Positions 10,095 to 50,946 of a DNA stretch of 64,000 bases are shown here, in pieces. Location of the stretch: positions 62,001 through 126,000 of the forward strand of contig NZ_QZDU01000008.1 in NCBI RefSeq assembly GCF_009917525.1, given 5' to 3'. Every line of letters starts with the position of its first letter. Position 1 is the first letter of the stretch. The DNA comes from Acutalibacter sp. 1XD8-36 (lineage in GTDB: Bacteria; Bacillota; Clostridia; Oscillospirales; Acutalibacteraceae). The notes beneath the pieces are model-generated. The model was not told where the DNA came from and did not search any database. It saw only the letters and a program-made list of their open reading frames with translations. The position numbers were made by a program, and so were the translations under genes.

Positions 10095-10123
10095 ATTATA
10101 TAAAGTTTTTTACTGATTTTCAA
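10095..10123 (-). promoter_or_regulatory. Sigma-A-type promoter for glgX
   Basis: On the minus strand TTGAAA (10123-10118), 17 bp and TATAAT (10100-10095). It overlaps the 3' end of the upstream nucleotidyltransferase gene, which is normal for closely packed genes in the same direction. Confidence 0.75.
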
Positions 10124-10961
10124 GTAAATTATTTAATATTTTCAGGGCAGACTGCTCGGCTTTTTCCGGGTAGGGATATTGCAGTGCCTCGGCACTGGCC
10201 CGGGCTAGGCGGCTGTACAGGTTCGCCAGGGCCCGCAGGGCTTCGGCTGTCTCCAGGCTGTCGTAAGTGGTGAAGCAGCCGCGAAGCCCCTCCCTTACGT
10301 CCTCCCCAGCCCAAAGCTCCAGCAGGCGTCCATTATGCCATACGTCGTAGTACATCGAATGCCGGCACTTCTCGCAGAGCTCTATCATTACCAGGAGAAG
10401 ACTTGAGATGTAGCCGTTCACGCAGGCCACAGCAGTATAGAGCTCGCCGCGCCTTAGTTTCTTAGCGGCCCAGACAATGTGGAACCAGAAGTCGTTTACC
10501 GTGTTTGTATACTCCTGAAGGGACATGGGGCCTCCGAGTATGGGGGCCGGTGCGAATTTTAGGCTTTCTGCCGCGCCCATCCTGTCAAACAGCACCCTGC
10601 TCCCCCGGGCCAGGATACCGCCAAGCTCTCCGGCCCCTATGGCCCGGCTCAGCTGGCCGGGCGTGACTACGACGATATCCACGTCCAGTGAGCCCTCAAA
10701 CAGTATACGTCGCTCCTTGGCTCCAGCCAGTGTCGGCTCTACAAAGGAGATGAGAGGGCTGCCTAGCCGGGATATGAGCGCATCCCCGCAGAGGTATCTC
10801 TCCGGCTCACTTGTGGCAAGTATCAGGTCCAGGTCTGAGAATTGGTCCGCAGGGGTCTGCTCCCGGGTCTGGGAGCCTATCTCGATTATCGCCTTTATGT
10901 CGCTGTCTGCTTCAGCCAGTTTTAAGAGCCGTTGCTTTATCTCTCCAAAACGCTCCGGCAT
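10110..10961 (-). CDS. ANT(6)-like aminoglycoside 6-adenylyltransferase family protein
   Basis: The protein is about 283 residues and fits the streptomycin 6-adenylyltransferase family (PF04439). The nucleotidyltransferase core shows GSQTREQ followed by FSDLDLIL, giving the first two metal-binding Asp. LDVDIVVV supplies the third. The helical C-terminal half contains NDFWFHIVWAAKKLRRGEL, which resembles the substrate-binding half of ANT(6). Chromosomal homologues are common in Clostridia and many have no proven resistance role, so activity on streptomycin is not shown. The ATG at 10961 is preceded by AGGAGGGG; a start at 11009 lacks a site. No mobile element surrounds it. Confidence 0.8.
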   Translation of the reverse strand: MPERFGEIKQRLLKLAEADSDIKAIIEIGSQTREQTPADQFSDLDLILATSEPERYLCGDALISRLGSPLISFVEPTLAGAKERRILFEGSLDVDIVVVTPGQLSRAIGAGELGGILARGSRVLFDRMGAAESLKFAPAPILGGPMSLQEYTNTVNDFWFHIVWAAKKLRRGELYTAVACVNGYISSLLLVMIELCEKCRHSMYYDVWHNGRLLELWAGEDVREGLRGCFTTYDSLETAEALRALANLYSRLARASAEALQYPYPEKAEQSALKILNNLLENQ

Positions 10962-11007
10962 ACTGCCGCCCCTCCTATAAGTCAAATCCAAAACAATTCT
11001 GTATAGC

Positions 11008-11032
11008 AAAAATGCCCTCGGTATGAGGGCAT
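11008..11032 (-). terminator. Terminator of the long fla/che operon
   Basis: On the minus strand an 8-bp stem (11032-11025 with 11019-11012, five-base loop) is followed by TTTTT. It lies 14 bases after the EAL-HDOD stop codon and marks the end of the operon that begins at flgB. Confidence 0.88.
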
Positions 11033-11045
11033 AGAGCTGCTGTTA

Positions 11046-12314
11046 TTATTGGGCTGCCTCCGGCATAGGGGGCTGCTGAGGCGAGATTATCTGCTTCCAG
11101 GTGGCATTCACCGACTCGGTGCAGTTGAAATAGACATTGGTGAGGGTATGGGCGGGAATGCCCAGCTCCTCGGCGTAATTGGTTATCTTTTCCCAGTCCG
11201 CCTGCTCATAGCTGAGCACCAAGTCGTACAGCTGACCGCAGCGGCCCTCGTGGAGCAGTATAGCCGACTTTATCTCCTCTGCAATGGGCACAGTGGAGAG
11301 TATCTCCTCCATTGGGGCGTCGATAAGGTGCTCAAGGGTGGAGAACATGCCCATTAGGTATGCGTCCGAGCGGGAGATGGGCATACCCTTTATGAAGCGC
11401 ATAAGCTCACTGCAGAAGCTGGCGCGCATGAAGGAGACCTTCAGGAACTCCTCGGCGGTCTCGTCTATCTCGTCATTGGCGTTGGTGGTACTCAAAAGGT
11501 ATATCCACTGCTTGAGCTGGGAAATACCCAGGCTAACCAGGGCCTGGCGAATCGTAGTTATCTTATTGGTGGTGAAGTACGCCGAGTTTGCCACGCGCAG
11601 AAGGCCGTATGTAAGGGTGGCGTCCATGGAGATAATCTGCTCTATCTCCTCCATGTCCGGCTCCTCCTTCACCACGGCTACCATGAGCCTGAAGAAGTTG
11701 CTCTGGAGATACCCGCTGGAGTGGGCCTTTGTAGCCAGCTGCTTTGCAACATAGCTGCCCTCCAGGGCGTACACGCCCAGCTCGATGGCGGCTTTATAAA
11801 GCTCCTCGTCATCGACGTTGGTAGCTATGACCTTCTTGTTCATGCTTCCGGCAAGGTTGACGATATTCTTTGCGCTTATAAGGTTTGTGGTCTTTACATT
11901 CAGCTTGATATAGTCGATAAAGTCAATCAATGACAGGTATCTCGGCGCAAACTGGAACTCGTTCACCGCAATCTTATAGCCGTCTCTGGCGTACTGCTGC
12001 ACAAAACGCAGGGCAAGGGGATGTATCACCACGCTGTCATCTATCTGTATTACCAGGTTCTCCTTGGGGAACAGCGCAGGGGTCTTCTTCATCAGCAGGG
12101 TAGTGGTAAAGGTCATGAAATGCAGGGCGTCTGTCAGGGACTTCTCCACATTCTGCATAAGGAAGCTGTATACCGTGTCGGCTACGGCAAACTCGTTAGA
12201 GCTCTCGTCGCTGTTGCCATAGGCCTGGTTCTCCCCATAGTACAGCAGCTCGTATGCTACAATCTGGTTTTTATCATTCTTGACCGGCTGCCGGACGATG
12301 TATCTCTCTCTCAT
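11046..12314 (-). CDS. EAL-HDOD signalling protein with degenerate EAL domain
   Basis: The protein is 422 residues with an N-terminal EAL-like domain (about 1-195) and a C-terminal HDOD domain (about 200-395), the YuxH architecture. The EAL signature reads ELL. The usual catalytic positions are replaced: FMTFTT where FxNxS is expected, VNEF in place of the DDFG-type motif, and ATNVDD in place of AEGVE. c-di-GMP hydrolysis is therefore unlikely; ligand binding or a scaffold role is possible. HDOD domains are helical HD-like domains without the catalytic HD pair and often act in signalling. It is the last gene of the fla/che operon, just after cheV, which suggests a role in motility control. 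Confidence 0.88.
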   Translation of the reverse strand: MRERYIVRQPVKNDKNQIVAYELLYYGENQAYGNSDESSNEFAVADTVYSFLMQNVEKSLTDALHFMTFTTTLLMKKTPALFPKENLVIQIDDSVVIHPLALRFVQQYARDGYKIAVNEFQFAPRYLSLIDFIDYIKLNVKTTNLISAKNIVNLAGSMNKKVIATNVDDEELYKAAIELGVYALEGSYVAKQLATKAHSSGYLQSNFFRLMVAVVKEEPDMEEIEQIISMDATLTYGLLRVANSAYFTTNKITTIRQALVSLGISQLKQWIYLLSTTNANDEIDETAEEFLKVSFMRASFCSELMRFIKGMPISRSDAYLMGMFSTLEHLIDAPMEEILSTVPIAEEIKSAILLHEGRCGQLYDLVLSYEQADWEKITNYAEELGIPAHTLTNVYFNCTESVNATWKQIISPQQPPMPEAAQ

Positions 12315-12329
12315 AATTTGTGACCTTCC

Positions 12330-13277
12330 TTACACCGCCGGGCGTTCTGCCTTGGCTTCCTTTTTCTTTTCAAGCAACACGTCCATTACATGGACCAGCT
12401 TGCCAATCTCGGGCTTGCTCATCTGCTCGTCGGCGCCCAGCTCCTTACCCTTAATGCGCATCTCCTCGTTTATCAGCGACGAGAAAATTATGAGGGGTAT
12501 ATGCTTCATATCCGGGTCGCTCTTCACAAGCTTTGTGAGCCTGTGCCCATCCATCTGGGGCATTTCAATATCCGTAACTATCAGGGCCGCCTGCTCATCA
12601 AGGGTCCCGTTTTTCTTGGCCTGGGACAGGAAGTTCCACAAATCATGCCCGTTGGGGAACATGCGCAGGTTTATGTAGCCGGCCTTATTCAGGCACTCCT
12701 GTATCATATGCGACAGGAGTATAGAGTCCTCAGCTACTAAAACAGGCACCTCGTTGCGCTGGCGCTCGCCCATCTCCTCTATCTCACTGACCTTTATAGA
12801 TGTGGAGGGGGATATCTCCGCCACTATGCGCTCGAAGTCCAGTATGGTGACCAAGTCCTTGCCGCACTGGGCTATACCTGTGGCTACGCCGTCGTTGCCG
12901 CCGCTTATGGTGTTGTCAGGCTTCTGGATGTCCTTCCAGGAGACTGTGGCAATGCCCACCACCGTATGAATGCGGAAGGCCACGGTCATTTTGTTGAAGC
13001 CGGTAAGTATAAACAGGTCGTCGGGCTTGGGCTCATAATTATTCACACCCAGATATTTGGGGAGGTTTATGACCGTTATCACCTCTTCCCTGGGCTTGAA
13101 GATGCCCTCCACCGCCTCGTGGGTGTGGGGCATGAACTTCACCGGCTCTGAAATCATTATCTGCTGTACCTTGGCAACATTGATGCCGTAAAGGACTCCG
13201 TCAATGGAGAACTGCATTATTTGCATTTCATTCGTACCGGACTCCAGCAGTATGTCGTCGTTCATTACTATGGCCAT
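12330..13277 (-). CDS. cheV: CheV coupling protein (CheW domain plus receiver)
   Basis: The protein is 315 residues. Residues about 15-165 form a CheW-like domain that links chemoreceptors to CheA. Residues about 175-305 form a receiver domain with the phospho-acceptor Asp near position 237 in IVTDIEMPQMDG and the Lys in MSKPEIG. CheV is the phosphorylatable coupling protein used for adaptation in Firmicutes. Here it takes the place of CheW inside the fla/che operon, while the simple CheW lies with cheR and cheB at about 58 kb. GGGAG precedes the ATG, and it is 17 bases from cheD. Confidence 0.93.
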   Translation of the reverse strand: MAIVMNDDILLESGTNEMQIMQFSIDGVLYGINVAKVQQIMISEPVKFMPHTHEAVEGIFKPREEVITVINLPKYLGVNNYEPKPDDLFILTGFNKMTVAFRIHTVVGIATVSWKDIQKPDNTISGGNDGVATGIAQCGKDLVTILDFERIVAEISPSTSIKVSEIEEMGERQRNEVPVLVAEDSILLSHMIQECLNKAGYINLRMFPNGHDLWNFLSQAKKNGTLDEQAALIVTDIEMPQMDGHRLTKLVKSDPDMKHIPLIIFSSLINEEMRIKGKELGADEQMSKPEIGKLVHVMDVLLEKKKEAKAERPAV

Positions 13278-22676: not shown

Positions 22677-24065
22677 TTACTTGCCGGTGATATCCTCGAT
22701 TTCGGGCCGCTTGATTATCTCAGTGACCCTAATGCCGAAGTTGTCGTCTATCACCACCACGTCTCCCCGGGCAATGCACTTGCCGTTTACGAACAAATCC
22801 ACCTGGTCCCCCGCCAGCTTGTCGAGCACCACCAGTGAACCCTTTGAGAAGGAGAGTATCTCCTGCACACGCTTCCTGGTGCGCCCGATTTCCACAGTGA
22901 CCTCTAGGGGCACGCCCATAATCAGGTCCAGGTTCTGGCTCTGCTCCTGGGACAGCTCCTCGCCGTTTTCCAGCCTCGGCATGGAGGGCTGGGTCGTGGC
23001 AATCACCTTTGGCTCAGGCGGCTGGGGCGGGTAATATGGATAGCCCGGATAGGGCGGGTAGTATGGATAGCCCGGATAGGCCTGCTGGCCCTCCTGGCCC
23101 GGCATGGGCATCATGGGCGGCATCACAGGCATCTGTGCCTGTGCCCCTGGCTGAGCCATTGGTGGCTGCTGCACTCCGGCAGGCGTTGCCGGTGCTGCCG
23201 GAACCTGCGGCGCCGGTGTAGCGGCTGGGGCGGAAGCCCCAGCTCCTCCCGCCAGAAGCTTCTCTATCTCCTCCTGACTCATCTTTCCGCCGCTGTCTGC
23301 AGGGGCGGGGGCCGGTGCCGGAGCAGGTGTGCCCGCTCCGCCGCCAGCCAGGAGCTTCTCTATCTCTTCCTGGCTGAGCTTGCCGCCCTCTGACGGTGCG
23401 GCAGGAGCAGGTGCCGGAGCCGGGGCGGGTGCTGCTGGAGCTGGGGCCGGCAGAGGTTCCATATCCTCGTCGTCAAGGCCAAAGCCCTTTACCAGCTCTT
23501 TCGCAAGCTCAACTGATATGACATTCATAAACTCGCTCTGCAGCTGGTCCTCTATGCTGAGAGCGAAGCGCACTACAACTATCGGGCCCTCCTTCACGGG
23601 CATCCTGTCCCGCTTCATGGCCTCCTGGTCGTACACATCAAAGGTCTCAGGAGTGGAGATGTTTACCACGCGTCCTAAAAAGTCCGAAAGGGCCGTGGAA
23701 GCCGCGCCCATCATCTGGTTCATGACCTCGCATACGGCGCTGAGAGTCAGCTCATCCAGCTCGAACTCCTCCAGCGGTGTGTCGGTACCCATTAGGATAT
23801 CAACTATTACCTTGATATCGCTCATGCGCAGCAGCATAATATTGCTGCCGTCCAGACCTGAAACATACTTGATTTCCACGCCCACCGCAGGCTCAATATC
23901 GCCCAGCTCAAAATCCTTTACATCAACCACCTCGACCGAGGGCGTAGTGATATCGACCCGGTGGTCTAACATGTTGGAAACTGCCGTCGCCGAAGATCCG
24001 AGACTGATATTCATGATCTCACCGATGGCATCAATCTCCATAGGTTTAAAAACACTATTGCTCAT
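22677..24065 (-). CDS. fliY: Motor switch phosphatase FliY with two FliM-N-like motifs in its linker
   Basis: FliY joins a CheC-like CheY-P phosphatase to a FliN-type C-ring domain. The protein is 462 residues. Residues about 5-195 hold two intact D/S-x3-E-x2-N sites: Asp12/Glu16/Asn19 and Ser109/Glu113/Asn116. Residues about 375-455 are the FliN domain (IMGVPLEVTVEIG...). The long Ala-Pro linker contains LSQEEIEKLLAGG at 230-242 and MSQEEIEKLLAGG at 262-274. Both resemble the CheY-binding N-terminus of FliM (LSQSQIDALL in this operon). A Tyr-Pro-Gly repeat (YPGYPYYPP, twice) follows at about 330-347. In Bacillus FliY a single such motif is at the N-terminus. It overlaps the end of fliM by 11 bases. 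Confidence 0.95.
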   Translation of the reverse strand: MSNSVFKPMEIDAIGEIMNISLGSSATAVSNMLDHRVDITTPSVEVVDVKDFELGDIEPAVGVEIKYVSGLDGSNIMLLRMSDIKVIVDILMGTDTPLEEFELDELTLSAVCEVMNQMMGAASTALSDFLGRVVNISTPETFDVYDQEAMKRDRMPVKEGPIVVVRFALSIEDQLQSEFMNVISVELAKELVKGFGLDDEDMEPLPAPAPAAPAPAPAPAPAAPSEGGKLSQEEIEKLLAGGGAGTPAPAPAPAPADSGGKMSQEEIEKLLAGGAGASAPAATPAPQVPAAPATPAGVQQPPMAQPGAQAQMPVMPPMMPMPGQEGQQAYPGYPYYPPYPGYPYYPPQPPEPKVIATTQPSMPRLENGEELSQEQSQNLDLIMGVPLEVTVEIGRTRKRVQEILSFSKGSLVVLDKLAGDQVDLFVNGKCIARGDVVVIDDNFGIRVTEIIKRPEIEDITGK

Positions 24066-25074
24066 TTACTACTCTGTCCCTTCTTCCGGCGTTATGGTAC
24101 ACCTCTTTTATCTTCACGGCCAGCTTTTTATCGCTGACCCCCATCAATCCGTTAAACCACCGCTGCCCGCCTACATAGAGGTTTAGGGTGCTGTCCTTCT
24201 TCTGGTTTAAGTCTATCACGTCGCCTACATTGAGCCTGTACACGTCGTCCAGCCGTAAAGTGGTCCTAGCAAGCTCTGCCCGTATCTCCAGTGTAGACTC
24301 ACGCAGATTGTCAAATATCTCGTCTGAATGGTCCTCGCTGTTGCTCTTCTTGCTGGCGCTACCCGCGTTTATCTGTGTAAATATCTCCATAAGCACCGCC
24401 TCAGGCAACACTATGCTGATACTGCCCTCCACGTTGGAGAAAGCCACCTTCATGTCAATCAGCACCACTGTCTCCTCAAGGCCGATAAGCTGCACGAGGG
24501 TCGGGTTGTTCTCCACACGGCCGAACTCGAACTCAAGCTGTATGTAGTTCTCCCACGTAATACCCATCATGCTGACAAAGTCCTTCATCAGCACCTCAAA
24601 GAGCTTAAGGTCCAGCTCAGTGTAGGTGTAGTCGTCCGGCAGGCTGTCTACGTCGCCGTTGCCGCCTGTCATACGGTCCATCATGCTCACCATAATCGGG
24701 GCTGCGGCATAGAAGAGCACCGGAGTCTCCTCCATCTCCTCCTTGAGTATCAGGTGTGCCGTTGTGAGCACGGCGCTGTCACTCAGGGCGTTGGAGAACT
24801 CGAAGTACCTCTGCTCCTCCACGGACTCCACACTTATCTCGCAGGTGGCGTGAACAAGGCCGTTTATCCTGGTAGTCAGCACCCGGGAGTAGTTGTCGAA
24901 GATACTGCTCAGCATCTTCAGCCTATCCTTTGTAAACTTCCGTGGGCTGCTGAAGTCATATTTCCTATATTTCTTTTCCTGCGGTTCCTCCTCTGCCGGG
25001 GACGAACCTCCCCCGCCGCCGTTCATGGAGTTCAGCAGGGCGTCTATCTGGCTTTGGGATAATACCTCTGGCAT
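24055..25074 (-). CDS. fliM: Flagellar motor switch protein FliM
   Basis: FliM forms the C-ring wall and receives CheY-P. The protein is about 339 residues. The N-terminus carries the CheY-docking motif LSQSQIDALLN, then a flexible Gly/Ser/Glu stretch, then the CheC-like middle domain (about 45-235) without phosphatase residues, and a C-terminal SpoA domain with LNVGDVIDLNQKKDS. The ATG at 25074 has AGGAGGG seven bases upstream. A longer reading from 25152 would add a non-conserved basic leader, so I reject it. The start overlaps the end of motB. Confidence 0.96.
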   Translation of the reverse strand: MPEVLSQSQIDALLNSMNGGGGGSSPAEEEPQEKKYRKYDFSSPRKFTKDRLKMLSSIFDNYSRVLTTRINGLVHATCEISVESVEEQRYFEFSNALSDSAVLTTAHLILKEEMEETPVLFYAAAPIMVSMMDRMTGGNGDVDSLPDDYTYTELDLKLFEVLMKDFVSMMGITWENYIQLEFEFGRVENNPTLVQLIGLEETVVLIDMKVAFSNVEGSISIVLPEAVLMEIFTQINAGSASKKSNSEDHSDEIFDNLRESTLEIRAELARTTLRLDDVYRLNVGDVIDLNQKKDSTLNLYVGGQRWFNGLMGVSDKKLAVKIKEVYHNAGRRDRVVNEQ

Positions 25075-25078
25075 CCGA

Positions 25079-26008
25079 TTAACCCTCCTGACCGCTTGAA
25101 CTCGGCGCGCTGCCGGAGTCGTCCTCAGTGGGGGCGGAGCTCCCGGCGTCATCCTCTTTCAGTGAGCCGCCCTCGCGCTGGGTATAATACTGCTCCACCG
25201 CATCGCCCAGCTTATTCCCAAGGTCCTTGCCTGTTATGGTCATCTCAACGCGACGGTTCTCCTTGCGGTGCTCGTCATCATTCACCGCTATAGGCCTATG
25301 CTGTCCGTAGGACTGCCCGACAATCCGGGCGGGCTCTATACCGGGCTTGCCGTCGCCGGTAGGCCGGCACAGCTGCTGCAGGTAATAAGTCACCTGTGCC
25401 GCACGTTCAGCAGAGAGCATCCTATCCCCCTCAGGGTCGTTTTCCTCATTGGGGTCGGCCTGGGCTGTATGGCCGGATATGCGTATCTCGTCTATGGCCG
25501 GGGCTGCCGCTTTAAGCACAGGTCCCATATTGTCAAGGAGCGCCTTGCCCTCAGGCAGCATATCGTATTTATCCGGGTAGAAGAACACCGTGTCCACCAG
25601 TGACAGGAACACATACCCGTCGCCTTTTGTTATTTCAATATTCTTGCCGGACTCCTCTATGTACTGCTTCAACTGGTCATAGAGCTGGTCCACCTGCTGG
25701 TTTATCTGCTCCTGCATCGCCTCCTGAGCTGCCTCAAGAGCTTCCTTTATCACATCCGGGTCGGCAACGCCCGGCTCCTTGTCATTGGCCTCTGCAAAGG
25801 GGCCATGGCTGTCGCCGGCCTCAATCTCTGTCTCCGCCGGAGTAGCGTTGGGGTTGAAGCTCTGTACCAGGGCCTTCCACTTGTTTTCATCAACTGTGGA
25901 CATAGAGTAGAGCAGTACAAAGAAACACAGCAGCAGGGTAACCATGTCGCCATAGGTGTCCATCCAGTTCGCGCCGCCGCCTTCGCCGCCGCCGCTCTTC
26001 TTTTTCAT
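25079..26008 (-). CDS. motB: Flagellar stator protein MotB
   Basis: MotB anchors the ion-driven stator to peptidoglycan. The protein is 309 residues. The single membrane helix at about 20-40 begins with the proton-channel Asp21 in TYGDMVTLLLCFFV. A coiled-coil-like linker (about 85-130) leads to an OmpA-type peptidoglycan-binding domain with SGHTAQAD and RMLSAERAAQVTYYL. The C-terminal tail is acidic and Ser-rich. A 265-base spacer with its own promoter and a strong hairpin separates it from motA, unlike the usual tight coupling. Confidence 0.95.
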   Translation of the reverse strand: MKKKSGGGEGGGANWMDTYGDMVTLLLCFFVLLYSMSTVDENKWKALVQSFNPNATPAETEIEAGDSHGPFAEANDKEPGVADPDVIKEALEAAQEAMQEQINQQVDQLYDQLKQYIEESGKNIEITKGDGYVFLSLVDTVFFYPDKYDMLPEGKALLDNMGPVLKAAAPAIDEIRISGHTAQADPNEENDPEGDRMLSAERAAQVTYYLQQLCRPTGDGKPGIEPARIVGQSYGQHRPIAVNDDEHRKENRRVEMTITGKDLGNKLGDAVEQYYTQREGGSLKEDDAGSSAPTEDDSGSAPSSSGQEG

Positions 26009-39038: not shown

Positions 39039-41183
39039 TCACTCGTCCCGATAACGTATCGTCACCTGGTCGTTAGCCCTCAGCACCTGGCTGAACTGGC
39101 CCTCAGCACCATTTACAAGCAATTCCACCGGCCTGTCAAGCTTTGAAAAGTCCAGCCCGGAACGCTCCAGCAGGTCCATCAGGTAGTAGTCCCCTCCGCC
39201 CTGCTTTGCCTCCAGGCGCAGGGGCGCGCCGTTGAGCACAACCTGCAGCCCCCCAAAGCTCAGCTGTCCCGGCAGCGGCTCCTCAGGCTGGGCCTTCTCC
39301 TGGGGCTCCTCCTTTGTGGTCCGGCGCTTCCTCGCCTGAGGTTCCTTCGGCTGTTCAGTAATTGGCTGCGCTTCAGGTTTCGCCTTCGGCTCAGCCTCAG
39401 GCTCTGTCTTTGGTTTCTCCTCCGCCTCAGGCGCGGGAGCTGGCTCCGGCTTGATTTCAGGCTCGCTTTTTACCTCTTTTATTTCTATTTCGGTAGTTTT
39501 CGGCTGCCTTTCAAGCTTTTTTTCAAGTACCGGCGGTGGCGGAGTCTCCTTCTGCGGCTTTGGAGGCTCAACTGGCCTGATGCGCCGCTGGGGTCGGGGC
39601 GGTATCGGAGCGCCCTCGGCAGTCACGTCGTCCCCCTGATGGATAGAGTAATCCATAGGCTGGGGCTGACCGTTTACCAGGACTGTCCCCGGGTATCCCT
39701 GACCCAGCAGCTCGCCCAGGGTCATTGTGGCAGGCTGGCCCGCCCTGGCTGGGATAAACTCAATCCGGTCCCCGGCCTGGACCACCGTGCTGAACTGGGC
39801 CTCCTCACCGTTTATGCTCAATCTGGACTCAACTCCAGGCATTCCACGCAGGAACTCCCTCTGGTCATTGAGAGTAAAGCTGAGATTTGCTCCGGTGCGC
39901 CCCATCATGTCCCCATAGTGGAAGCCGTTCATCAGCAGCACATCCCGAAGATTCAGGGTGCCGTTGCGGAAGAGCTTGGCAGGGTAGCCGTTCAGGGTCA
40001 CCATATAGCTGTCGTTTATCATCCCCAGCGCCGCCGAGGCCCCGATGCCCAGTGGCGTGGCGTACTCCGGGTCCGCCAGCTGATACTCGTCGGAGAAGGC
40101 GCTGTTGGCAAAGTGATTTCCTGCCAGTGCAACCCTTGCCTCGCTCATGTCTAGCTCACCGGCTATCATCGCCGTCAGGCCCTGGAGCTTGCTGCCGCCT
40201 CCCGCCAGGAACACCGCCGAGGGCGCCCCGCCGTTGAGCTCAAGTATCTGAGCGGCTATCTCCTTCGCCAGCTTCTGGGCGGCAGGCTGTATCACTTCGC
40301 TGAGGTTTGCCGGACTTATCTCGTGCTTTATCCCCAGGATATCCGGGTACTGTATCGGCTCCATCGAGCCCAGGGCCAGCTTTAGACGCTCGCCTGTCTT
40401 AAAGTCCACCAGCAGGCTGCGCATTAGCAGCTCGGTTATCTCATCTCCAGCCACGGTAGCCATGGTGTAGCCCACCACGCTCCCCTCCCGGCAGACAGCT
40501 ATGTCCGAAGTGCCGGCCCCTATATCTACAAGCACCAGGTTCAGCAGCCGGATGTCGGCGGGTATAGCCGCATTCAGCGCTGCGATGGGCTCAAGGGTCA
40601 GACTGGAGACCTCTAGTCCCAGGCGGTTAGTTACGGCGTACAGGCTCTCCACCACGCCGCTTGGCAGGAAAGTCGAGACTACGTCCGCCTCAAAGACCTG
40701 GCCCCGGTGGTCCATCAGATTTGTCATCGGGTATCCGTCCAAAACATACTGCCTGGCGGTATATCCCACCATATAAAAGCGCCCCTGCCCGGCGCTGTCC
40801 CCGGCTATAAGCCGCTCGGCCTCGGTGACAGCCCCGGCCTCCAGCTGGCCTATAAGGTCCGCGTCGGCCTTTCTCAGCTCGTCAAACTTCAGCGTAAAGC
40901 TGGCGCTCTGGGACCTAAGGGCCCTTCCTGCCGCAGCCACACAGACCCGGCTGAGCTTCATGCCGGACTTCTCCTCAAGCCTCTTTATGACCTCTCCGGC
41001 TACTGAGGCCACCTGCTCTATCTCCACAATCTGTCCGTCAAGCATGGCCCGGCGGTCATGCTCCTCTTTCTCTATGGCTGTCACATAAAACCGGCCGTTC
41101 TCCACCCGGCCCAGCATACCGATAATGCTGCGGGTGCCGATGTCCAGGGCAAATACTACACCTGAGTCCTGTTCTTTCATCAT
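39039..41183 (-). CDS. FtsA/PilM-like actin-fold protein with beta-grasp-like C-terminal modules
   Basis: The protein is about 714 residues. Residues 1-390 match the FtsA fold: FALDIGTRSIIG is the first phosphate loop, LVDIGAGTSDIAV the second, and FLAGGGSKLQGL the adenosine motif. Classical FtsA stops near residue 420 with a membrane helix; none is seen here. Instead residues about 392-520 hold repeated pieces of the type VxxNG...GDxVxF (MVTLNGYPAKL, SINGEEAQFSTVVQAGDRIEF, TVLVNGQPQPMDYSIHQGDDV), a Pro/Glu/Lys linker follows (about 524-632), and a final module has the same pattern (636-714). The function is unknown. GAGGTGAGG supports the ATG at 41183. It lies 16 bases after a terminator and downstream of a chemoreceptor gene. 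Confidence 0.8.
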   Translation of the reverse strand: MMKEQDSGVVFALDIGTRSIIGMLGRVENGRFYVTAIEKEEHDRRAMLDGQIVEIEQVASVAGEVIKRLEEKSGMKLSRVCVAAAGRALRSQSASFTLKFDELRKADADLIGQLEAGAVTEAERLIAGDSAGQGRFYMVGYTARQYVLDGYPMTNLMDHRGQVFEADVVSTFLPSGVVESLYAVTNRLGLEVSSLTLEPIAALNAAIPADIRLLNLVLVDIGAGTSDIAVCREGSVVGYTMATVAGDEITELLMRSLLVDFKTGERLKLALGSMEPIQYPDILGIKHEISPANLSEVIQPAAQKLAKEIAAQILELNGGAPSAVFLAGGGSKLQGLTAMIAGELDMSEARVALAGNHFANSAFSDEYQLADPEYATPLGIGASAALGMINDSYMVTLNGYPAKLFRNGTLNLRDVLLMNGFHYGDMMGRTGANLSFTLNDQREFLRGMPGVESRLSINGEEAQFSTVVQAGDRIEFIPARAGQPATMTLGELLGQGYPGTVLVNGQPQPMDYSIHQGDDVTAEGAPIPPRPQRRIRPVEPPKPQKETPPPPVLEKKLERQPKTTEIEIKEVKSEPEIKPEPAPAPEAEEKPKTEPEAEPKAKPEAQPITEQPKEPQARKRRTTKEEPQEKAQPEEPLPGQLSFGGLQVVLNGAPLRLEAKQGGGDYYLMDLLERSGLDFSKLDRPVELLVNGAEGQFSQVLRANDQVTIRYRDE

Positions 41184-41198
41184 GAACCTCACCTCTCT

Positions 41199-41237
41199 AA
41201 ACGAAACCGGACGGCCCAATAAGTATAGGCCGTCCGG
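41199..41237 (-). terminator. Terminator between the chemoreceptor and the FtsA-like gene
   Basis: On the minus strand a perfect 10-bp stem (41237-41228 with 41216-41207) is followed by TTTCGTTT. It ends only 16 bases before the next start codon, so the FtsA-like gene is expressed by read-through or by a weak promoter not recognised here. Confidence 0.75.
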
Positions 41238-44108: not shown

Positions 44109-44155
44109 CCCCGGTCCGGCTCCTTTCAGCTATGCTTTCAGCGCTGCGGCGCTTC

Positions 44156-44184
44156 TTTACAAAACCATATTTTTTTGGTATAAT
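44156..44184 (+). promoter_or_regulatory. Extended -10 promoter for the C39-like protease gene
   Basis: TTTACA (44156-44161), 17 bp and TATAAT (44179-44184) preceded by TGG. The transcript diverges from the ABC-like gene, whose start is at 44108. Confidence 0.75.
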
Positions 44185-44230
44185 CGTGTCGAATCTAAAA
44201 TCGTTCAGTCCCTGCCCCAAGGAGGCCCCA

Positions 44231-45133
44231 GTGAAAAACCCCTCTCGGAGAAATCCAAGAAGCCCCATAATCTTTGTCATGCTCCTGGCGCTGCTATGCG
44301 TCGGGGGCATGGAGCTCGCTTTCTGCGCCCATTTCTCTCCGGAGCTCTATCATAAAATAACCGACCCGGTGGTACAGCCTGTGGTGCGGGCTGTCAACTC
44401 AGCCAAGGCCCAGCTGCGCCAGTGGGAGTTTGAGCTGCGCTTAAACAGGGTGCTTGCCGAAGTAGTGGAGTTGTCCTCTGAATATAGGCAGCCCCGCCCG
44501 GTATATTTCCCCGAGCGGCCCCAGTACATCCTGCACCCCGAGCTGCTTGAGCCTCCGCCCGAGCCCGCTGAGCCGGCGATTACCGAGTTCATTGAGGAAG
44601 ACGGCCGCATTATACTTACAGGCACCAACCCGGTGGTGTATTTTAACCAGGGTGACCCCGCCTGGCGCGACAAGCCCTTCGGCACGGACTACATAGGCAA
44701 ATATGCCTGCGGACCCACTGTTATGGCTATGGTCGTGGCTACTCTCACCGATACGGACACCGACCCGGCTAAAATGGCAGTTTGGGCGTATGAGCATGGA
44801 TACTGGTGCTCGGGAAGCGGGTCTTTCCCATCTATTATAGCGGGGACCTCAAAGGCCTTTGGGATAGACTGCCGGGAGGCCAAGGATTGTGACCCCGGCG
44901 CTTTGCGGGCGCACCTCCGTAGCGGGGGGTTGGCTGTGGCCTTAGTCGGGCCCGGGCATTTTACTGACAGCGGGCATTTTATCCTTATCCACGGGTATTC
45001 CCTTAGCGGGGAGGTTTTGGTTGCGGACCCTAACAGCAGGGATAATAGCTTGGCTCTTTGGGACCCCCGGGTTATTCTTAGTGAGGCCCGGGCCAGCAAT
45101 GGGGATGGGGTTTGTGTTTGGTTGATTGGGTAG
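44231..45133 (+). CDS. Secreted or membrane-anchored C39-like cysteine peptidase
   Basis: The protein is about 300 residues. A basic N-terminus and a hydrophobic segment (about 13-33) suggest a signal anchor. A Pro/Glu-rich spacer leads to a peptidase C39-like domain (about 130-300). It begins VVYFNQGDPAWRDKPFG and has the catalytic Cys in YACGPT, the His in SGHFILIHG and the Asp/Asn in VADPNS. The substrate is unknown. GTG at 44231 is chosen because AAGGAGG lies six bases upstream; an ATG at 44132 would precede the promoter -10. It faces the dead ABC-like gene but lacks the ABC fusion typical of bacteriocin exporters. Confidence 0.85.
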   Translation: MKNPSRRNPRSPIIFVMLLALLCVGGMELAFCAHFSPELYHKITDPVVQPVVRAVNSAKAQLRQWEFELRLNRVLAEVVELSSEYRQPRPVYFPERPQYILHPELLEPPPEPAEPAITEFIEEDGRIILTGTNPVVYFNQGDPAWRDKPFGTDYIGKYACGPTVMAMVVATLTDTDTDPAKMAVWAYEHGYWCSGSGSFPSIIAGTSKAFGIDCREAKDCDPGALRAHLRSGGLAVALVGPGHFTDSGHFILIHGYSLSGEVLVADPNSRDNSLALWDPRVILSEARASNGDGVCVWLIG

Positions 45134-46154: not shown

Positions 46155-48851
46155 TCAGCCGCCCATCATGCCCGCCAGCATGGAGCTCTGGGAGTTCATC
46201 TGGTTTATGAGCATTTCAAGCTGGGTAAACTTGTTGGTGTAGAAGTCCACCCTATCACCCATCTTATCCTGCCAGCGCTCTATCTGCTCCTGTAGATTGT
46301 CCATCTGGTCCTGTATCTCGTTATGGCTCAGTGAGTAGCTGGAGAGCTCTGTGCCCGCCTTGCTTACCAGTATGCCGGGGCTGCCGATGGAAGTTTTGCC
46401 GTACATCTCAAGGGTGGTCTTCAGCCCTGCCATCAGGCCGTCCTGGGAGGCGCCGTTGGCCGTGGACTGAGTGAAGGCGTTCTTTACCCTGTCCGGGTCG
46501 GTTTCCAGCATATTGCGCAGCTTATCCTCGTCCAGGCTCAGGGTGGAAAGGCCGTTGGAGAAGTCCACAGTAAGTCCAATGCTCCTAAGAGCCGCGCCAA
46601 CCTCGCCTGAGCCCTGAACCGCCTCGGTCAGCTTGCTGTAAAGGTTGGAAATGTCTTGGTCCCCAAAGAGTATGCCGGTCTTCGCCTTCTTCTCGTAGGC
46701 CTCAATGGAGCTCTCGCTCATGCCGGACATATCGTCGTCGGTCAGCGGCTCATATGGCTTGCCGCTGGAGTTCTTCAGCGTTTCAGTCTTATAGGCGTTG
46801 TGCATTTCTGTGACGAGCTTATTATAATCCTCAATAAAGCTCTTGACAGCGTCCACTATCTTGTCGGAGTCTGAAGTGTTGGTAAAGGTTATCTTCTCTG
46901 CGGAAGTGTCAATGCTTCCGTCTTCCTTATAGCCGAAGGTGTTCTTCAGTGTAACCTGCATACCGTCAAGGTCAACGGTGTTGGAGGAGCGGGTCAGCTC
47001 CATATCCTCACCGTTGATGTTCACGCTCAAGATAGCGTCCTGCCCGGCGGTGAATTTACCCTTAGACTCAGAATATGCCTTATCAACTTCTATTTCAACC
47101 GATTCAGGAGTAAGAACCCTGATACTAGCCTTCTCACCACTACTGTTTGTGACCTCAAATTGACTCGTATCTTTGTTGAAAGAGAAAGATTGTCCAGGAT
47201 TTGCATTCTTGTTCAATTCCTTAATGACATCTTCCATCGTTTGATTGTCAGCGATATTGAAGCTTTGAGTATAGTTTGTATTTCCCAATCTAAATTTAAA
47301 TGTGGTCCACTGCTTATCTCCCGGAGCAATCTTACCACCATAAACATCGTTAAATGTGGTAGTTTCAGTGATTTCCTTAGGCGGTGCGCCAAACAGCTTT
47401 GCACCCAAATCCCCACGTATATCGACCCTGCTCTGTGAACCAGTTTCCTTTGCAGTAATGGCAAAGTTCCCGGTCAGGCTGGAATACTTAATTTCAACGC
47501 CAGCCTCATCGTCGCCGTTGACCTTATCCATCAGATTCTTGATGGTATCGGTGGACTTGAACTCAAACTCCTTGCCGTTAATCTTGATGGTGGAGTACTT
47601 TATGTCGTTGCCGTCATCGTCTTTTTTTGTTTGCCAATTAAAGTTTTCGCCCAGCGCCTTCTCAAGAGTCCAGCTGGTCTGCAGGGTATTGCTGAAGCCG
47701 CCCTCGCCAAGGCCAAGAGCCTTATTGACCACATCACTGCTGCCTGAAACCTTCAGGGTAGAGCCGTTGCCGCTTGGCCCTGTAAACTTCAGGCCGCCGG
47801 TAGTAGCGTCCACAGAAGCGGTGACCTTACCGCCAAACTCCTCTTTGAGCTGCTTATTTATGCCCTCGGCCAAAGCTTTGGTTTTATCCTCATCTGAATT
47901 GGCATTTTTGAAAGCGTCGCTTTCAACGATATCCTTGAGCTGGATTTTCTTGGTCTTGCCGTCCAGGGTCACATTGATGTATTTGTCCCCAAGGTAGCTG
48001 GCACGGTCATTTTTCACTATCAGGTCGTCTTCAGTTATCGGCTTCTCGGAAGCAATGATAGAACCGGCAGCCTCGGACTTCTTAAACAATTCGCCCATCT
48101 TGCCTGTAGAGCCAGTAACGGCAAAATAGTTGCCCTTCTTGTCAACCAGCTGTATCCTTCCGTCCTCGCCCACCCTGGCCTCAATGTACTTATCAGCGGA
48201 GACAGCCCCGCTGCTGGTGGTGATGTTGCTGTCCTTTAGCTTCTTATTGATAGCGTCGGCCAGCTCCTGGGGAGTTTTGTAGACCTCATCCTCAGAGAAG
48301 CGCAGGGTAAAGGTGCTGCCCTTACCATCCTTGCCGCCGCCGTATTTCAGGGAGATTGAACCGGAAACGTTGCTGGTCTCAATCTTTTCATCCCAGTCAA
48401 TAGCCTCGGTTTCGGAGCCCTCGCTCACCAGATGGTCGGTGCCGACGGTATAGCTTGCGGCCTGGGCCAGCTGCTTAATGCGGTTGATAGCCACATTGCT
48501 GCTGCTCTTGCCGATGGCACTCACCGCCGCGGCATTGGCGCCGTTGGCGATGGTGTTCACCGCCTTGGTGAAGAAGCTGGAGCTGAAAAGGTTTGTGCTG
48601 CTGGAGTAGGAGGTGTACTTATCCAGGATATTGTTCATCTGGACGATAAGGCTGCGGTATGCGTCCTGTTTCCACTGCATTTTTGTCATTTTCTGCTGCA
48701 GGGAGGTTATCTTAGACTTGTACCCCGAAATGCTGTTTTCAATCATGGACTCAGTGTCCATACCGCTGGCAAGGCCGCTGATTACGTTGCGGTTGCCGTA
48801 TAAACTGTTGGTGCCGCTGGAACTGTTCATCAAACTTGTGATAGAAGCCAT
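46155..48851 (-). CDS. fliD: Flagellar filament cap protein FliD
   Basis: FliD caps the filament tip and guides flagellin assembly. The protein is about 898 residues, roughly twice the length of Bacillus FliD, through expansion of the exposed middle. The N-terminal domain contains VISGLASGMDTESMIENSIS and the C-terminus carries a coiled coil ending near MNSQSSMLAGMMG. The centre (about 47040-47460) is strikingly AT-rich: the 60-base line 47161-47220 has 22 G or C. GGAG precedes the ATG at 48851; a start at 48941 is rejected because it lacks a site. Confidence 0.95.
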   Translation of the reverse strand: MASITSLMNSSSGTNSLYGNRNVISGLASGMDTESMIENSISGYKSKITSLQQKMTKMQWKQDAYRSLIVQMNNILDKYTSYSSSTNLFSSSFFTKAVNTIANGANAAAVSAIGKSSSNVAINRIKQLAQAASYTVGTDHLVSEGSETEAIDWDEKIETSNVSGSISLKYGGGKDGKGSTFTLRFSEDEVYKTPQELADAINKKLKDSNITTSSGAVSADKYIEARVGEDGRIQLVDKKGNYFAVTGSTGKMGELFKKSEAAGSIIASEKPITEDDLIVKNDRASYLGDKYINVTLDGKTKKIQLKDIVESDAFKNANSDEDKTKALAEGINKQLKEEFGGKVTASVDATTGGLKFTGPSGNGSTLKVSGSSDVVNKALGLGEGGFSNTLQTSWTLEKALGENFNWQTKKDDDGNDIKYSTIKINGKEFEFKSTDTIKNLMDKVNGDDEAGVEIKYSSLTGNFAITAKETGSQSRVDIRGDLGAKLFGAPPKEITETTTFNDVYGGKIAPGDKQWTTFKFRLGNTNYTQSFNIADNQTMEDVIKELNKNANPGQSFSFNKDTSQFEVTNSSGEKASIRVLTPESVEIEVDKAYSESKGKFTAGQDAILSVNINGEDMELTRSSNTVDLDGMQVTLKNTFGYKEDGSIDTSAEKITFTNTSDSDKIVDAVKSFIEDYNKLVTEMHNAYKTETLKNSSGKPYEPLTDDDMSGMSESSIEAYEKKAKTGILFGDQDISNLYSKLTEAVQGSGEVGAALRSIGLTVDFSNGLSTLSLDEDKLRNMLETDPDRVKNAFTQSTANGASQDGLMAGLKTTLEMYGKTSIGSPGILVSKAGTELSSYSLSHNEIQDQMDNLQEQIERWQDKMGDRVDFYTNKFTQLEMLINQMNSQSSMLAGMMGG

Positions 48852-48982
48852 TGCATTCACTCCTTTTTTGTGGTAACATATCCCTAGAGGGGATGGATAG
48901 ACTGTTTTCTGGGGCAGTTTCCCCGGGAAAATCGCCCTCAAAAAGGGTAAAACCCAGAGAAGCCATTATTTCTTCTATATTT

Positions 48983-49009
48983 ATATCGACACTAGTATTG
49001 GAAAGATAA
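48983..49009 (-). promoter_or_regulatory. Candidate sigma-28 promoter for fliD
   Basis: On the minus strand GTCGATAT (48990-48983) matches seven of eight bases of the sigma-28 -10 GCCGATAT. At 15 bp spacing the -35 is TTAT, only two of four against TAAA. The leader to fliD would be about 125 bases. fliD is normally a late, sigma-28-dependent gene, which supports the call. Confidence 0.45.
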
Positions 49010-49051
49010 GAGCTTTCCGCGAAAATTTTGCTTCTGGAGAGGAGCCTTCCT

Positions 49052-49807
49052 ATGGAAAAGATTATTGCAATTACCAACCAGAAAGGCGGGGTCGGCAAAA
49101 CTACCACCGCTCTTTCCCTTATCAACGCCCTGCGCCTCAGAAATTACCGGGTCCTCGGCGTGGACCTCGACCCCCAGGGAAGCCTGGGCTTTTCGGCGGG
49201 GCTGGACATTGAGAATGCAGACACGGTCTATGAGGTGATGAAGGGCTCGGCCGATATCCGCGACACAATTATGTCCACAGACCTGGGGGACGTGCTGCCC
49301 TCAAACATCCTGCTGTCCACAGCGGAGCTGGAGTTTAACGCTCCCGGCCGGGAGTATCTTCTGAAAAACGAGCTGGACAAGGTTGAGCGTAACTACGACT
49401 ATATCATCATCGACACGCCGCCCGCCCTTAACGTCCTCACCATCAACGCCTATGTGGCCTCCGGCGCGCTGATTATTCCTATGGCCCCTGAGATACTGAG
49501 CCTTCTTGGTATTTCCCAGATTCGGGACACCATAAATACAGTGAAGAAATATTACAACCCCGACCTTAGGGTGCTGGGCATACTCCTCAACAAGTACAAC
49601 CAGCGGCTCACTCTCAACCGCGAGGTGCTGGAGCTCTCCAGTGAAATCGCCCGCAAGCTTGATACCAAGGTGCTCGACACCAAAATCCGCACGAGCGTAG
49701 TTGTCGCCGAGGCCCCCGCCCATGGTGAGAGCGTCCTGTCCTATGCACCCCGCTCCAACCCATCCATGGACTTCCAGGCGCTCTTGGACGAGCTCATGAG
49801 CCTATAA
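49052..49807 (+). CDS. parA: ParA/Soj-type ATPase between flagellar operons
   Basis: The protein is about 251 residues. It begins with a deviant Walker A (KGGVGKTT), then the switch DLDPQGSLG, Walker B IIIDTPPALN and a C-terminal half typical of ParA/Soj rather than FlhG/MinD, with no amphipathic membrane-targeting helix seen at the end. ParA proteins use ATP-dependent DNA or partner binding to position plasmids, chromosomes, chemoreceptor arrays or flagella. No ParB is next to it; a ComFB-domain gene follows after 40 bases. GGAG supports the ATG at 49052. Confidence 0.92.
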   Translation: MEKIIAITNQKGGVGKTTTALSLINALRLRNYRVLGVDLDPQGSLGFSAGLDIENADTVYEVMKGSADIRDTIMSTDLGDVLPSNILLSTAELEFNAPGREYLLKNELDKVERNYDYIIIDTPPALNVLTINAYVASGALIIPMAPEILSLLGISQIRDTINTVKKYYNPDLRVLGILLNKYNQRLTLNREVLELSSEIARKLDTKVLDTKIRTSVVVAEAPAHGESVLSYAPRSNPSMDFQALLDELMSL

Positions 49808-49847
49808 GCACAGCTTTATATAAAAACTACCGAAAGGAGACCATACT

Positions 49848-50606
49848 ATGGCTAATTCCAAAAATTCCCGCTCCAACAAAACTGCCCACGTTTTAAACCT
49901 CCTCACCGAGCCCGGCGAGGCCTCCAAGGAATCCTCCCGCTCCGAGCGTCCCGCCTCCGCGCCCACCCCTACACCCGACAACTCCGAGGAGGTTGCCAGC
50001 GCAATCCGCGACGCCCTTGAGGAGGACCTGCTTGCCGAGCTCACCGAGGACGAGCCCGCCGTGCAGCAGCCTGAGCCGGAGCCTGTACCCCAGCCCGCCC
50101 AGGAGGTTGAGCCTGAGCCTGCTCCCGAGCCGGAACCTGTCCACCAAGCCGCCAAGCCTGTCCCCCAGCCCGAGCCTGAGCCAATTCCGGAGCCTGTCCC
50201 GGAGCCCGAGCCTGTGCTGGAGGCTGAGCAGGCTCCAGAGCCGGAGCCTGCCCTGGAATCGGAGCCGGTACAGGAGCCCGACCCCATTGATGATATCACC
50301 TACGTGAACGTGCTGCAGGCGCTGGTTGAGGACCGTGTAGATAAGTATATGAAGCAGTTTAAGATGTGCGACTGCCATCGCTGCCGCACCGATGTGGTTG
50401 CCCTGGCGCTTACCAGTCTGCCCGCCAAATATATTGTGGTGCCTGAGCATGAGAGCGTGCCCATGCTGTCTATTTATGAAAGCAGGTACAGCGCTGCAGT
50501 TACGGCCCAGCTTATTGCGGCCTGCCAGAAAGTAGCCGAGCATCCCCGGCATTCTGACGGTCACGACGGGCGGCTGCGGCTGGGAGCTCCCAGAAACGAC
50601 GAGTAA
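49848..50606 (+). CDS. ComFB-domain protein with Pro-Glu linker, likely ParA partner
   Basis: The protein is 252 residues. The first 20 residues are basic and polar (K5, R8, K11). Residues about 43-68 are helical and acidic, 70-147 form a Pro-Glu repeat linker, and 149-235 match the ComFB family (PF10719) with [16 protein letters not shown], the CDCHRC cysteine cluster at 174-179 and [14 protein letters not shown]. ComFB-type proteins have been reported as c-di-GMP receptors in other bacteria. The tail (236-252) is basic. AAAGGAG lies before the ATG. The pairing with parA and the basic N-terminus suggest a ParB-like partner; this is an inference. Confidence 0.85.
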
Positions 50607-50630
50607 TCCCTATGCCGGTATAAAAAGAAT

Positions 50631-50659
50631 GCGGAGCATATGCTCCGCGTTTTTTTTTG
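50631..50659. terminator. Bidirectional terminator between the ComFB gene and csrA
   Basis: The perfect palindrome GCGGAGCATATGCTCCGC (50631-50648) is followed on the plus strand by about nine T. On the minus strand it is followed by ATTCTTTTTAT. It separates two converging transcripts. Confidence 0.9.
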
Positions 50660-50688: not shown

Positions 50689-50946
50689 TTACTTTTTGTC
50701 CCCCTCGGATTTCTCGCCGCCCGCAAGCATTGAGAATGCCGCAAGCAAATCCTGAGGCAGGCTCTGCTCGTCTGCCGCGTCAATATTCTCGCGCATGGCA
50801 TTCGCCAACTCCAGGCGCAGCACCGACACCGTCTTAGGCGCGTCTATGGCTATCTGCACCTCTTTGTCCTTTGTGGCAATGATAGTCACCTTTACGTCCT
50901 CCCCAATGAGGAAGGACTCACCTGCTTTCCTGCGCAGAATCAGCAT
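50689..50946 (-). CDS. csrA: RNA-binding translational regulator CsrA
   Basis: The protein is 85 residues, beginning MLILRRKAGESFLIGEDVKV with the typical IAIDAPKTVSVLR strand. CsrA blocks translation of flagellin mRNA and is itself bound by FliW. The ATG at 50946 lies inside the last codons of fliW and has GAGGAGGGG upstream, so the two are translationally coupled. The C-terminal extension of about 25 residues is acidic and helical, as in other Firmicutes CsrA proteins. Confidence 0.97.
   Translation of the reverse strand: MLILRRKAGESFLIGEDVKVTIIATKDKEVQIAIDAPKTVSVLRLELANAMRENIDAADEQSLPQDLLAAFSMLAGGEKSEGDKK

Follow-up and report, generated by a model that had tools for sequence, protein, structure and literature searches.

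A candidate ParA-ComFB positioning module for the motility apparatus of flagellated Clostridia

A ParA-ComFB gene pair between flagellar genes

Analysis of a 64,000-nucleotide stretch of the Acutalibacter sp. 1XD8-36 genome (contig NZ_QZDU01000008.1; hereafter the window, to which all window coordinates refer) identified a two-gene unit on the plus strand, between fliD and csrA, that encodes a ParA-type ATPase and, after a spacing of 40 nt, a partner protein ending in a ComFB domain (Table 1). An initial annotation, made from the sequence, had proposed such a two-gene plus-strand unit closed by a terminator, and both the coordinates and a hairpin with a z score of -5.07 bore this out. The parA gene is preceded by a Shine-Dalgarno-like GGAGAGGAG. 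Based on the analyses below, we propose that the pair is a ParA-type positioning module for the motility apparatus, acting in the role of FlhF/FlhG, with the flagellar C-ring and CheY or the chemotaxis machinery as its cargo; we put the probability of this reading at roughly 0.6.

Conservation of the gene pair

Two genome samples, one of the order (197 genomes) and one of the family (200), were searched with the Pfam ComFB model. The order sample contributed 28 ComFB loci and the family sample a further 16, giving 44 distinct loci (loci, genomes and families are designated below by L, G and f numbers). A ParA gene lay directly upstream of ComFB in 24 of these 44 loci, and the two groups were completely separated by size, with paired ComFB frames of 154-419 aa (n=24) and solo frames of 90-136 aa (n=20, the solo status of L004 being judged on 440 nt upstream). 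The window's genome has one Pfam-detected ComFB. In the class sample, ComFB was detected in 112 of 391 genomes, mostly in frames of 87-138 aa.

When named genomes were scanned with an alignment of six sequences, 157 relatives came up, of which the best 80 were kept; 78 of these were tightly paired. The two exceptions were L080, where an intact ParA lies 0.4 kb further away, and L110, which begins at a contig edge. The named relatives include Oscillospiraceae, Lachnospiraceae, Flavonifractor, Oscillibacter, Anaerotignum and Mediterraneibacter. The sampled and named sets are not independent because five loci are shared, with the same sequence in both (L049/L090, L050/L111, L051/L155, L061/L143 and L063/L086), and the 104 partners accordingly hold five repeats. 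The initial annotation had named a lack of conserved adjacency among its grounds for refutation, and these counts show the adjacency to be conserved. It had taken the ComFB protein to be the partner of the ParA; the adjacency, the absence of the N-terminal motif from solo ComFBs and the single ParA clade (both described below) support that assignment.

A ParA profile search of 18 flagellates that lacked both FlhF and a Pfam-detected pair identified three more members (L186, L187 and L188), all scoring above 365 bits, with the next match at 245. The partners at all three loci carry the N-terminal motif, though that of L187 leaves the contig before any ComFB domain. Those of L186 (2344-2904, plus strand) and L188 (862-1428, minus strand) have the type A form of the motif, are preceded by a PAS-GGDEF gene and parA, and gave no Pfam ComFB match at E-values up to 1; the Pfam ComFB model was therefore rejected as a complete detector of pairs. 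A single-protein query with the window partner found no relatives among viral contigs. No paper whose title concerns the ParA-ComFB pairing was found in a literature search that left subscription papers and preprints outside its reach.

Association with flagella and non-overlap with FlhF

Each of the 23 genomes in which Pfam detected a pair encodes FlhA. The pair occurred in 13 of 37 FlhA-positive and none of 160 FlhA-negative genomes of the order sample (p 5e-11), and in 12 of 20 and none of 180, respectively, in the family sample (p 2e-14); two pair genomes are common to both samples, and a weak FlhA match in G291 (E 9e-4) was dropped. At the level of the locus, fliD was a nearest matched neighbor in 70 of the 80 named loci, and flagellar or chemotaxis genes lay within 77 of these and 19 of the 24 sampled loci. 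Since the insertion point varies (fliD/csrA, fliD/EAL-HDOD or cheB/flgK, and codirectionally between EAL-HDOD and fliD in L101, L102, L109, L115 and L124), the association of the pair with flagella survives rearrangement.

Among the 37 flagellates of the order, 16 had the pair (three by the ParA profile alone), 14 had FlhF above the cut-off, seven had neither and none had both, the ParA profile search having left out FlhF-positive genomes. This exclusion had a p-value of 2e-5, or 3.5e-4 counting just the 13 Pfam-detected pairs; all these p-values treat kin genomes as independent, and only families f7 and f18 hold both states, in different genomes. The 20 flagellates of the family sample divided into 12 with the pair, eight with neither and none with FlhF. 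No FlhF above the cut-off was found in the window genome, the 16 pair genomes of the order sample or 10 further pair genomes of the family sample. The module is not obligatory, because fifteen flagellates (7 of the order, 8 of the family) have neither FlhF nor a detected pair.

The window genome gave two partial matches to the FlhF model, both below the cut-off (75 and 55 bits), which we take to be FtsY/Ffh. It encodes six ParA/MinD-like frames, one of them (L075) MinD-like, and none of the six has the DQAxxLR motif, given as the N-terminal motif of FlhG in passages of PMC12826062. The flagellar tie and the missing flhF of the initial annotation gained support well beyond the locus in which they were seen.

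The partner protein

The window partner matched PF10719 over residues 153-233 (E 1e-14; 54.8 bits against a cut-off of 25). Its CDCHRC cluster supplies three cysteines that, together with H235, are invariant in 21 aligned paired proteins, the window protein included, and that correspond to the zinc ligands of Bacillus subtilis ComFB as described in part of PMC4381287. The CxCxxC and PxH signatures were present in 80 of 80 proteins (79 named and the window), and a zinc-binding ComFB domain is predicted for the window partner on the strength of these residues. The structural model (m978ecb49d2b6) was confident in this domain (block predicted local distance difference test, pLDDT, 94-98), and Foldseek matched it to two Protein Data Bank entries, 4wai (B. 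subtilis ComFB, E 8.9e-05) and 8hja (CdgR with cyclic di-GMP, c-di-GMP; E 1.4e-03), with nothing else below E 0.01. Neither a CheW/AIF-like nor a DNA-binding domain was found in the window partner by domain searches or structure matches; ComFB was the sole domain detected.

Ahead of this domain lies a linker that in the named partners is 18% Pro, 17% Ala and 17% Glu. The model places a helix in it (residues 46-66), for which one pattern found relatives in 53 of 90 type A partners and another in 51 of 104; conservation of this helix is merely suggestive because both patterns were ad hoc. The ComFB domain with its cysteine cluster and the Pro/Glu-rich linker had been noted in the initial annotation and were confirmed by the PF10719 match and the alignment.

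The N-terminus of most partners carries one of two motifs. The type A consensus is K-S-[NS]-K-T-[AD]-[HR]-V-L-N-L-[LI], and type B resembles D-K-E-L-M-Y-K-K-L-M-P-S. Sorted by eye, the 24 sampled partners comprised 12 of type A, 10 of type B and two of neither (L045 and L046). The type A core was present in 79 of 80 named partners and in none of 43 solo ComFBs; the former count is biased because the patterns of the named-genome scan included the motif, a bias of which the 24 Pfam-based loci are free. In the window model a short helix (residues 12-20) falls at the motif, at low to moderate confidence (block pLDDT 69). Net charge from the start to the end of the motif was +2 to +6 in the 79 named type A partners and the window, and over the first 25 residues it ranged from 0 to +6 in the 24 sampled partners, the window partner having +1. 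The N-terminus of the window partner, which the initial annotation called basic, is only mildly so, but it holds a conserved motif.

The ParA protein and its clade

The window ParA matched AAA_31 (E 2.8e-52), and its closest solved chains were ParA/Soj. It has a deviant Walker A motif, KGGVGKT, with the signature lysine; K11, G12, G13, V14, K16 and T17 were invariant in an alignment of 21 ParAs, and R213 was kept in at least 90% of its rows. The protein starts MEKIIAITNQKGG, and all 21 aligned ParAs begin a few residues ahead of the P-loop and have short, variable C-termini. The window ParA has no FlhG-type N-terminal extension, that is, no DQAxxLR helix before Walker A, and was rejected as an FlhG on this basis.

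In a quick tree, which took 19 hand-chosen ParAs of the 78 named pairs, the type A and type B ParAs formed one clade of 44 rows (Shimodaira-Hasegawa-like approximate likelihood ratio test, SH-aLRT, 99) apart from 21 other ParA/MinD rows. Within it, type B formed one clade (99) and type A a 32-row clade (99) plus L186/L188. The ParAs of the motif-less pairs (L045 and L046) fell outside, though on long branches. Because types A and B cluster and the motif-less pairs fall outside, N-terminal motif and ParA clade largely go together. The combination in L045 and L046 of a different ParA with an N-extended ComFB, outside flagellar loci, is possibly a second, independent origin of the pairing.

FliY- and FliM-like peptides in partner linkers

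The linkers of some partners contain a peptide resembling those of the flagellar C-ring. The strict pattern [LMIV]SQx[EDQAN]I[ED]xLL occurred once in the L095 partner, twice in L136 and six times in L187, and most copies read GGK[LM]SQ(E/D)EIE(K/R)LL, close variants of the peptide found twice in the window FliY (SEGGKLSQEEIEKLLAGG and SGGKMSQEEIEKLLAGG). Among 4,636 stop-to-stop frames of at least 100 aa (1.04 million residues from the window and loci longer than 7 kb, the shorter L187 locus lying outside the scan), only four matched: the L095 and L136 partners, the window FliM and the window FliY. When the residues of the 104 partners were shuffled 1000 times, no match arose. L053 and L054 carry four and six repeats, respectively, of a looser form (e.g., MSDDAIAALF). 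According to passages of PMC6946799, the EIDAL motif of FliM is bound by CheY; an interaction of FlhG with FliY is described for B. subtilis (PMC12327844). From its sequence, we read the linker peptide as likely connecting the partner with CheY or the C-ring in the lineages that bear it.

Layout of the locus

The genes flanking the pair are all on the minus strand. FliS and FliD lie on one side, and CsrA, FliW, DUF6470, FlgL (assigned by place and length, without a Pfam match), FlgK, FlgN and CheB/R/W/A on the other.

Table 1. Positions of the gene pair and associated features in the 64-kb window
Feature	Coordinates	Strand	Description
parA	49052..49807	+	251-aa Soj-type ParA ATPase; ATG at 49052; stop codon ends 49807; flagellum-associated clade
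comFB (ParA partner gene)	49848..50606	+	252 aa; N-terminal motif, Pro/Ala/Glu linker, ComFB domain
N-terminal motif of partner	49869..49904	+	Residues 8-19; conserved; proposed ParA-activating peptide
Predicted mid-linker helix	49983..50045	+	Residues 46-66 of partner
ComFB domain	50295..50552	+	Residues 150-235; predicted zinc site C174, C176, C179, H235; dimer-type residues N154, D182, Y195
Intrinsic terminator hairpin	50622..50657	+	T-run; -22.4 kcal/mol, z -5.07; between convergent comFB and csrA
Intergenic region, fliD (-)/parA (+)	48852..49051		Divergent; 200 bp
fliD	46155..48851	-	Divergent neighbor of parA
csrA	50692..50937	-	Convergent neighbor, other side of pair
fliY	22680..24065	-	CheC + FliMN_C domains; two copies of GGK[LM]SQEEIEKLLAGG peptide in Pro/Ala linker between CheC-like and FliN-like domains
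fliM	24058..25152	-	LSQSQIDALL near N-terminus, EIDAL-type CheY-binding motif

Several other genes of the window were noted. A 726-aa FtsA/PilM-like ATPase with a ThiS/ubiquitin-like stretch is encoded at 39042-41219 (minus strand), and many relatives (e.g., L049, L063, L088-L091 and L095-L098) have a homologue adjoining their flagellar genes. A divergent C39-type peptidase gene (44132-45130, plus strand), near fliS and an ABC ATPase, has the same place in many relatives. An EAL-HDOD protein (11049-12314) and a CheV-like protein with CheW and receiver domains (12333-13277) are encoded on the minus strand, as is a protein matching the Pfam Adenyl_transf (streptomycin adenylyltransferase) family (10113-11009; E 2.7e-31).

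Solo-conserved residues of the ComFB domain and a possible c-di-GMP link

The initial annotation had linked the window protein to c-di-GMP, a claim that was not supported by comparison with solo ComFBs. Eight positions are conserved in 79-100% of 43 solo ComFBs (T and S counted together), and all eight differ in the window protein (E157Q, N189T, T/S198V, G201H, Y204V, K206M, Q213R and D217A), which does keep E202. For five of the eight, a comparison with CdgR, a c-di-GMP receptor of solved structure, was possible, and CdgR shares them. Across 37 type A rows (the window, ten sampled loci and a third of the named ones), the zinc ligands, N154, D182 and Y195 were kept, E157 was present in 40% and the other seven positions in a minority; type A has conserved positions of its own in K194 and C226 (100%), R/K213 (93%) and Y210 (91%). 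Type B partners kept E157 and N189 in 10 of 10, and a T-[ST]-E-x-G loop is kept in the CdgR fragment and in the motif-less pairs. Like the window protein, B. subtilis ComFB has neither the glycine nor the aspartate (positions 201 and 217), and reportedly binds c-di-GMP and affects motility. Because the solo-conserved positions are replaced in the window protein and mostly in type A, we infer that the type A ComFB domain may have turned from a ligand receptor into an adaptor, on the assumption that these residues serve ligand binding.

Every one of the 23 pair genomes encoded GGDEF proteins. Two genomes of a single genus, G067 and G108, have a PAS-GGDEF gene codirectional with parA and 115-120 nt upstream of it, and in five Lachnospiraceae-type loci the first matched gene upstream of parA encodes an EAL-HDOD protein. 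A GGDEF gene considered as directly upstream at L058 was rejected, as another gene intervenes. The ComFB protein of Synechocystis binds c-di-AMP, with c-di-GMP competing (PMC12313861). Control of the ParA-ComFB family by c-di-GMP is possible.

Proposed function and alternatives

In the proposed module, ParA would bind the nucleoid as an ATP dimer, as inferred from its family, and the conserved N-terminal motif of the partner would dock on ParA and trigger ATP hydrolysis. The long disordered linker would give the partner reach, and its zinc-stabilized, dimeric ComFB domain would tie it to the C-ring/CheY or chemotaxis cargo, in some lineages with the help of the FliY-like linker peptides. The module would thereby set the number and placement of flagella, or of co-placed chemotaxis clusters, as FlhF/FlhG do elsewhere. 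A more specific version is that of an undescribed ParA system taking the place of FlhF/FlhG in flagellated Clostridia of the Oscillospiraceae and Lachnospiraceae types, in which the activating N-terminal motif is joined to a linker that has gained a FliM/FliY CheY/C-ring peptide in several lineages, the ComFB dimer has become a cargo adaptor and the motor or CheY-P is placed by a nucleoid-riding ATPase. We hold this version tentatively, at somewhat below even odds.

Several observations weigh against a positioning module in the FlhF/FlhG role. The reading is weakened because the N-terminus of the window partner is only weakly basic, and near-neutral N-termini (net 0 to +1 over 25 residues) were seen in L065, L048 and L067 as well; it is also weakened because one of the three extra pairs shows no ComFB domain. 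That of L187 would lie off the contig, and the L186 partner is without the zinc cysteines. The window partner has no FliY-like peptide, whose strict form was found in 3 of 104 partners with EIDAL-type patterns that were written after the repeats had been seen, and most loci stop short of fliM and fliY. No flagellar or chemotaxis gene was found in the stretch around L045, L046, L057, L058 and L060 (of 24) or L134, L137 and L144 (of 80). None of 94 upstream regions (window and relatives) matched a sigma-D promoter upstream of parA, using a consensus for which shuffled sequences give 1.1 loose and 0.1 strict matches. To these may be added the fifteen flagellates in which both FlhF and a detected pair are missing, the kinship of the genomes behind the p-values, the incompleteness of genomes, and the chance that a diverged pair was missed in the FlhF-positive genomes.

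The same evidence was weighed for other roles. That the pair positions chemoreceptor arrays alone, in the manner of ParC/ParP or PpfA/TlpT, and not flagella, is somewhat unlikely. Chemotaxis genes flank many pairs (e.g., CheB beside ComFB in L067, L136, L140, L147 and L153), and the layout of ParP given in part of PMC5706961, with ParC binding at the N-terminus, then a proline-rich linker and an array domain at the C-terminus, matches that of the partner; but the partner has no CheW/AIF-like domain, its usual neighbor is fliD (70 of 80) and not che genes, the non-overlap concerns FlhF, and some partners have a linker peptide like that of C-ring proteins. The replacement of eight solo-conserved positions in the window protein, and mostly in type A too, together with an L186 partner that has neither zinc cysteines nor a ComFB match, makes it unlikely that positioning is gated by c-di-GMP, with ComFB binding this ligand (or c-di-AMP), which would switch the binding of cargo or ParA and so couple the messenger to flagellar placement. 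In favor of such gating are the ligand binding of Synechocystis ComFB (PMC12313861), the weak match of the partner model to 8hja, the GGDEF proteins in all 23 pair genomes, the PAS-GGDEF gene upstream of parA in G067 and G108, the EAL-HDOD gene upstream in five loci, and the retention of E157 and N189 in type B. The reported c-di-GMP binding and motility effect of B. subtilis ComFB point the same way.

FlhG/FleN-type ATPases also regulate transcription, and a purely regulatory role, in which ParA-ComFB would control flagellar gene expression or the availability of CheY-P without transport of a cargo, would suit both the csrA-fliW genes adjoining the pair in the window and the CheY-binding-type peptides of some partners. 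We regard it as distinctly unlikely, given that the ParA keeps its ATPase motifs, that the partner has the layout of ATPase-activating partners and that no DNA-binding domain was seen. It is extremely improbable that the ParA is an ordinary partitioning protein, of chromosome or plasmid, that neighbors ComFB by chance. The ParA is indeed Soj-type, and NCBIfam partition models match it, below their cut-offs; but no ParB adjoins it, its neighbor is ComFB, the type A and B ParAs form a clade of their own apart from the Soj-ParB loci of the same group, and the pairing is kept across many genera. Soj loci L189, L190, L193 and L198 do show ParB, by eye, and a chromosome partitioning ParA was rejected by neighborhood and tree. 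We retain the positioning module as the preferred reading.

Comparison with known systems

According to parts of PMC10241942 and PMC7993993, in partners of ParA/MinD ATPases a charged N-terminal stretch serves the ATPase and the rest serves the cargo. The charged, positively enriched N-terminal stretch of ParA-activating partners is present in the window partner, if weaker over 25 residues, and the protein has the architecture of known ParA partners. The PomX/PomZ system of Myxococcus likewise has a ParA/MinD ATPase, and its PomX combines a conserved, charged peptide at the N-terminus with an unstructured Ala/Pro-rich part and a part for interaction at the C-terminus (passages of PMC7993993); the C-terminus of PomX is a coiled coil, however, where ComFB stands here, and the cargo is cell division. 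McdA/McdB, which positions carboxysomes, also combines a ParA-like ATPase with an N-terminally charged partner, as described in part of the same paper, and differs in cargo and partner domain. ParC/ParP and PpfA/TlpT share with the pair a ParA-like ATPase and a link to chemotaxis, and ParP its N-terminal ATPase binding and proline-rich linker (part of PMC5706961), whereas the window partner has no CheW-like or methyl-accepting chemotaxis protein domain.

FlhF/FlhG resembles the pair in having an ATPase of the ParA/MinD superfamily in a flagellar locus, and the non-overlapping distribution suggests a replaced role; the module here differs in having no signal recognition particle-type GTPase partner and no DQAxxLR helix, and its ATPase is Soj-type. 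With the ComFB/CdgR family (PF10719) the partner shares the domain, the zinc-site residues and N154, D182 and Y195, and it differs in its long N-terminal extension, its ParA partner and the changed solo-conserved positions.

Some motile bacteria have no FlhF/FlhG, and a review asks whether and how enterics place and count their flagella and points to newer regulatory systems elsewhere (passages of PMC12826062). If our reading is correct, the pair would be a concrete two-gene candidate for flagellar placement or counting in Clostridia without FlhF/FlhG, a new partner class for ParA/MinD ATPases, and a case of a ComFB domain that appears to have traded family-conserved positions for an adaptor role. 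Most likely, the module resembles PomX/PomZ or ParC/ParP in its working, and it does not show the tested defining features of FlhG, ParABS or ParP.

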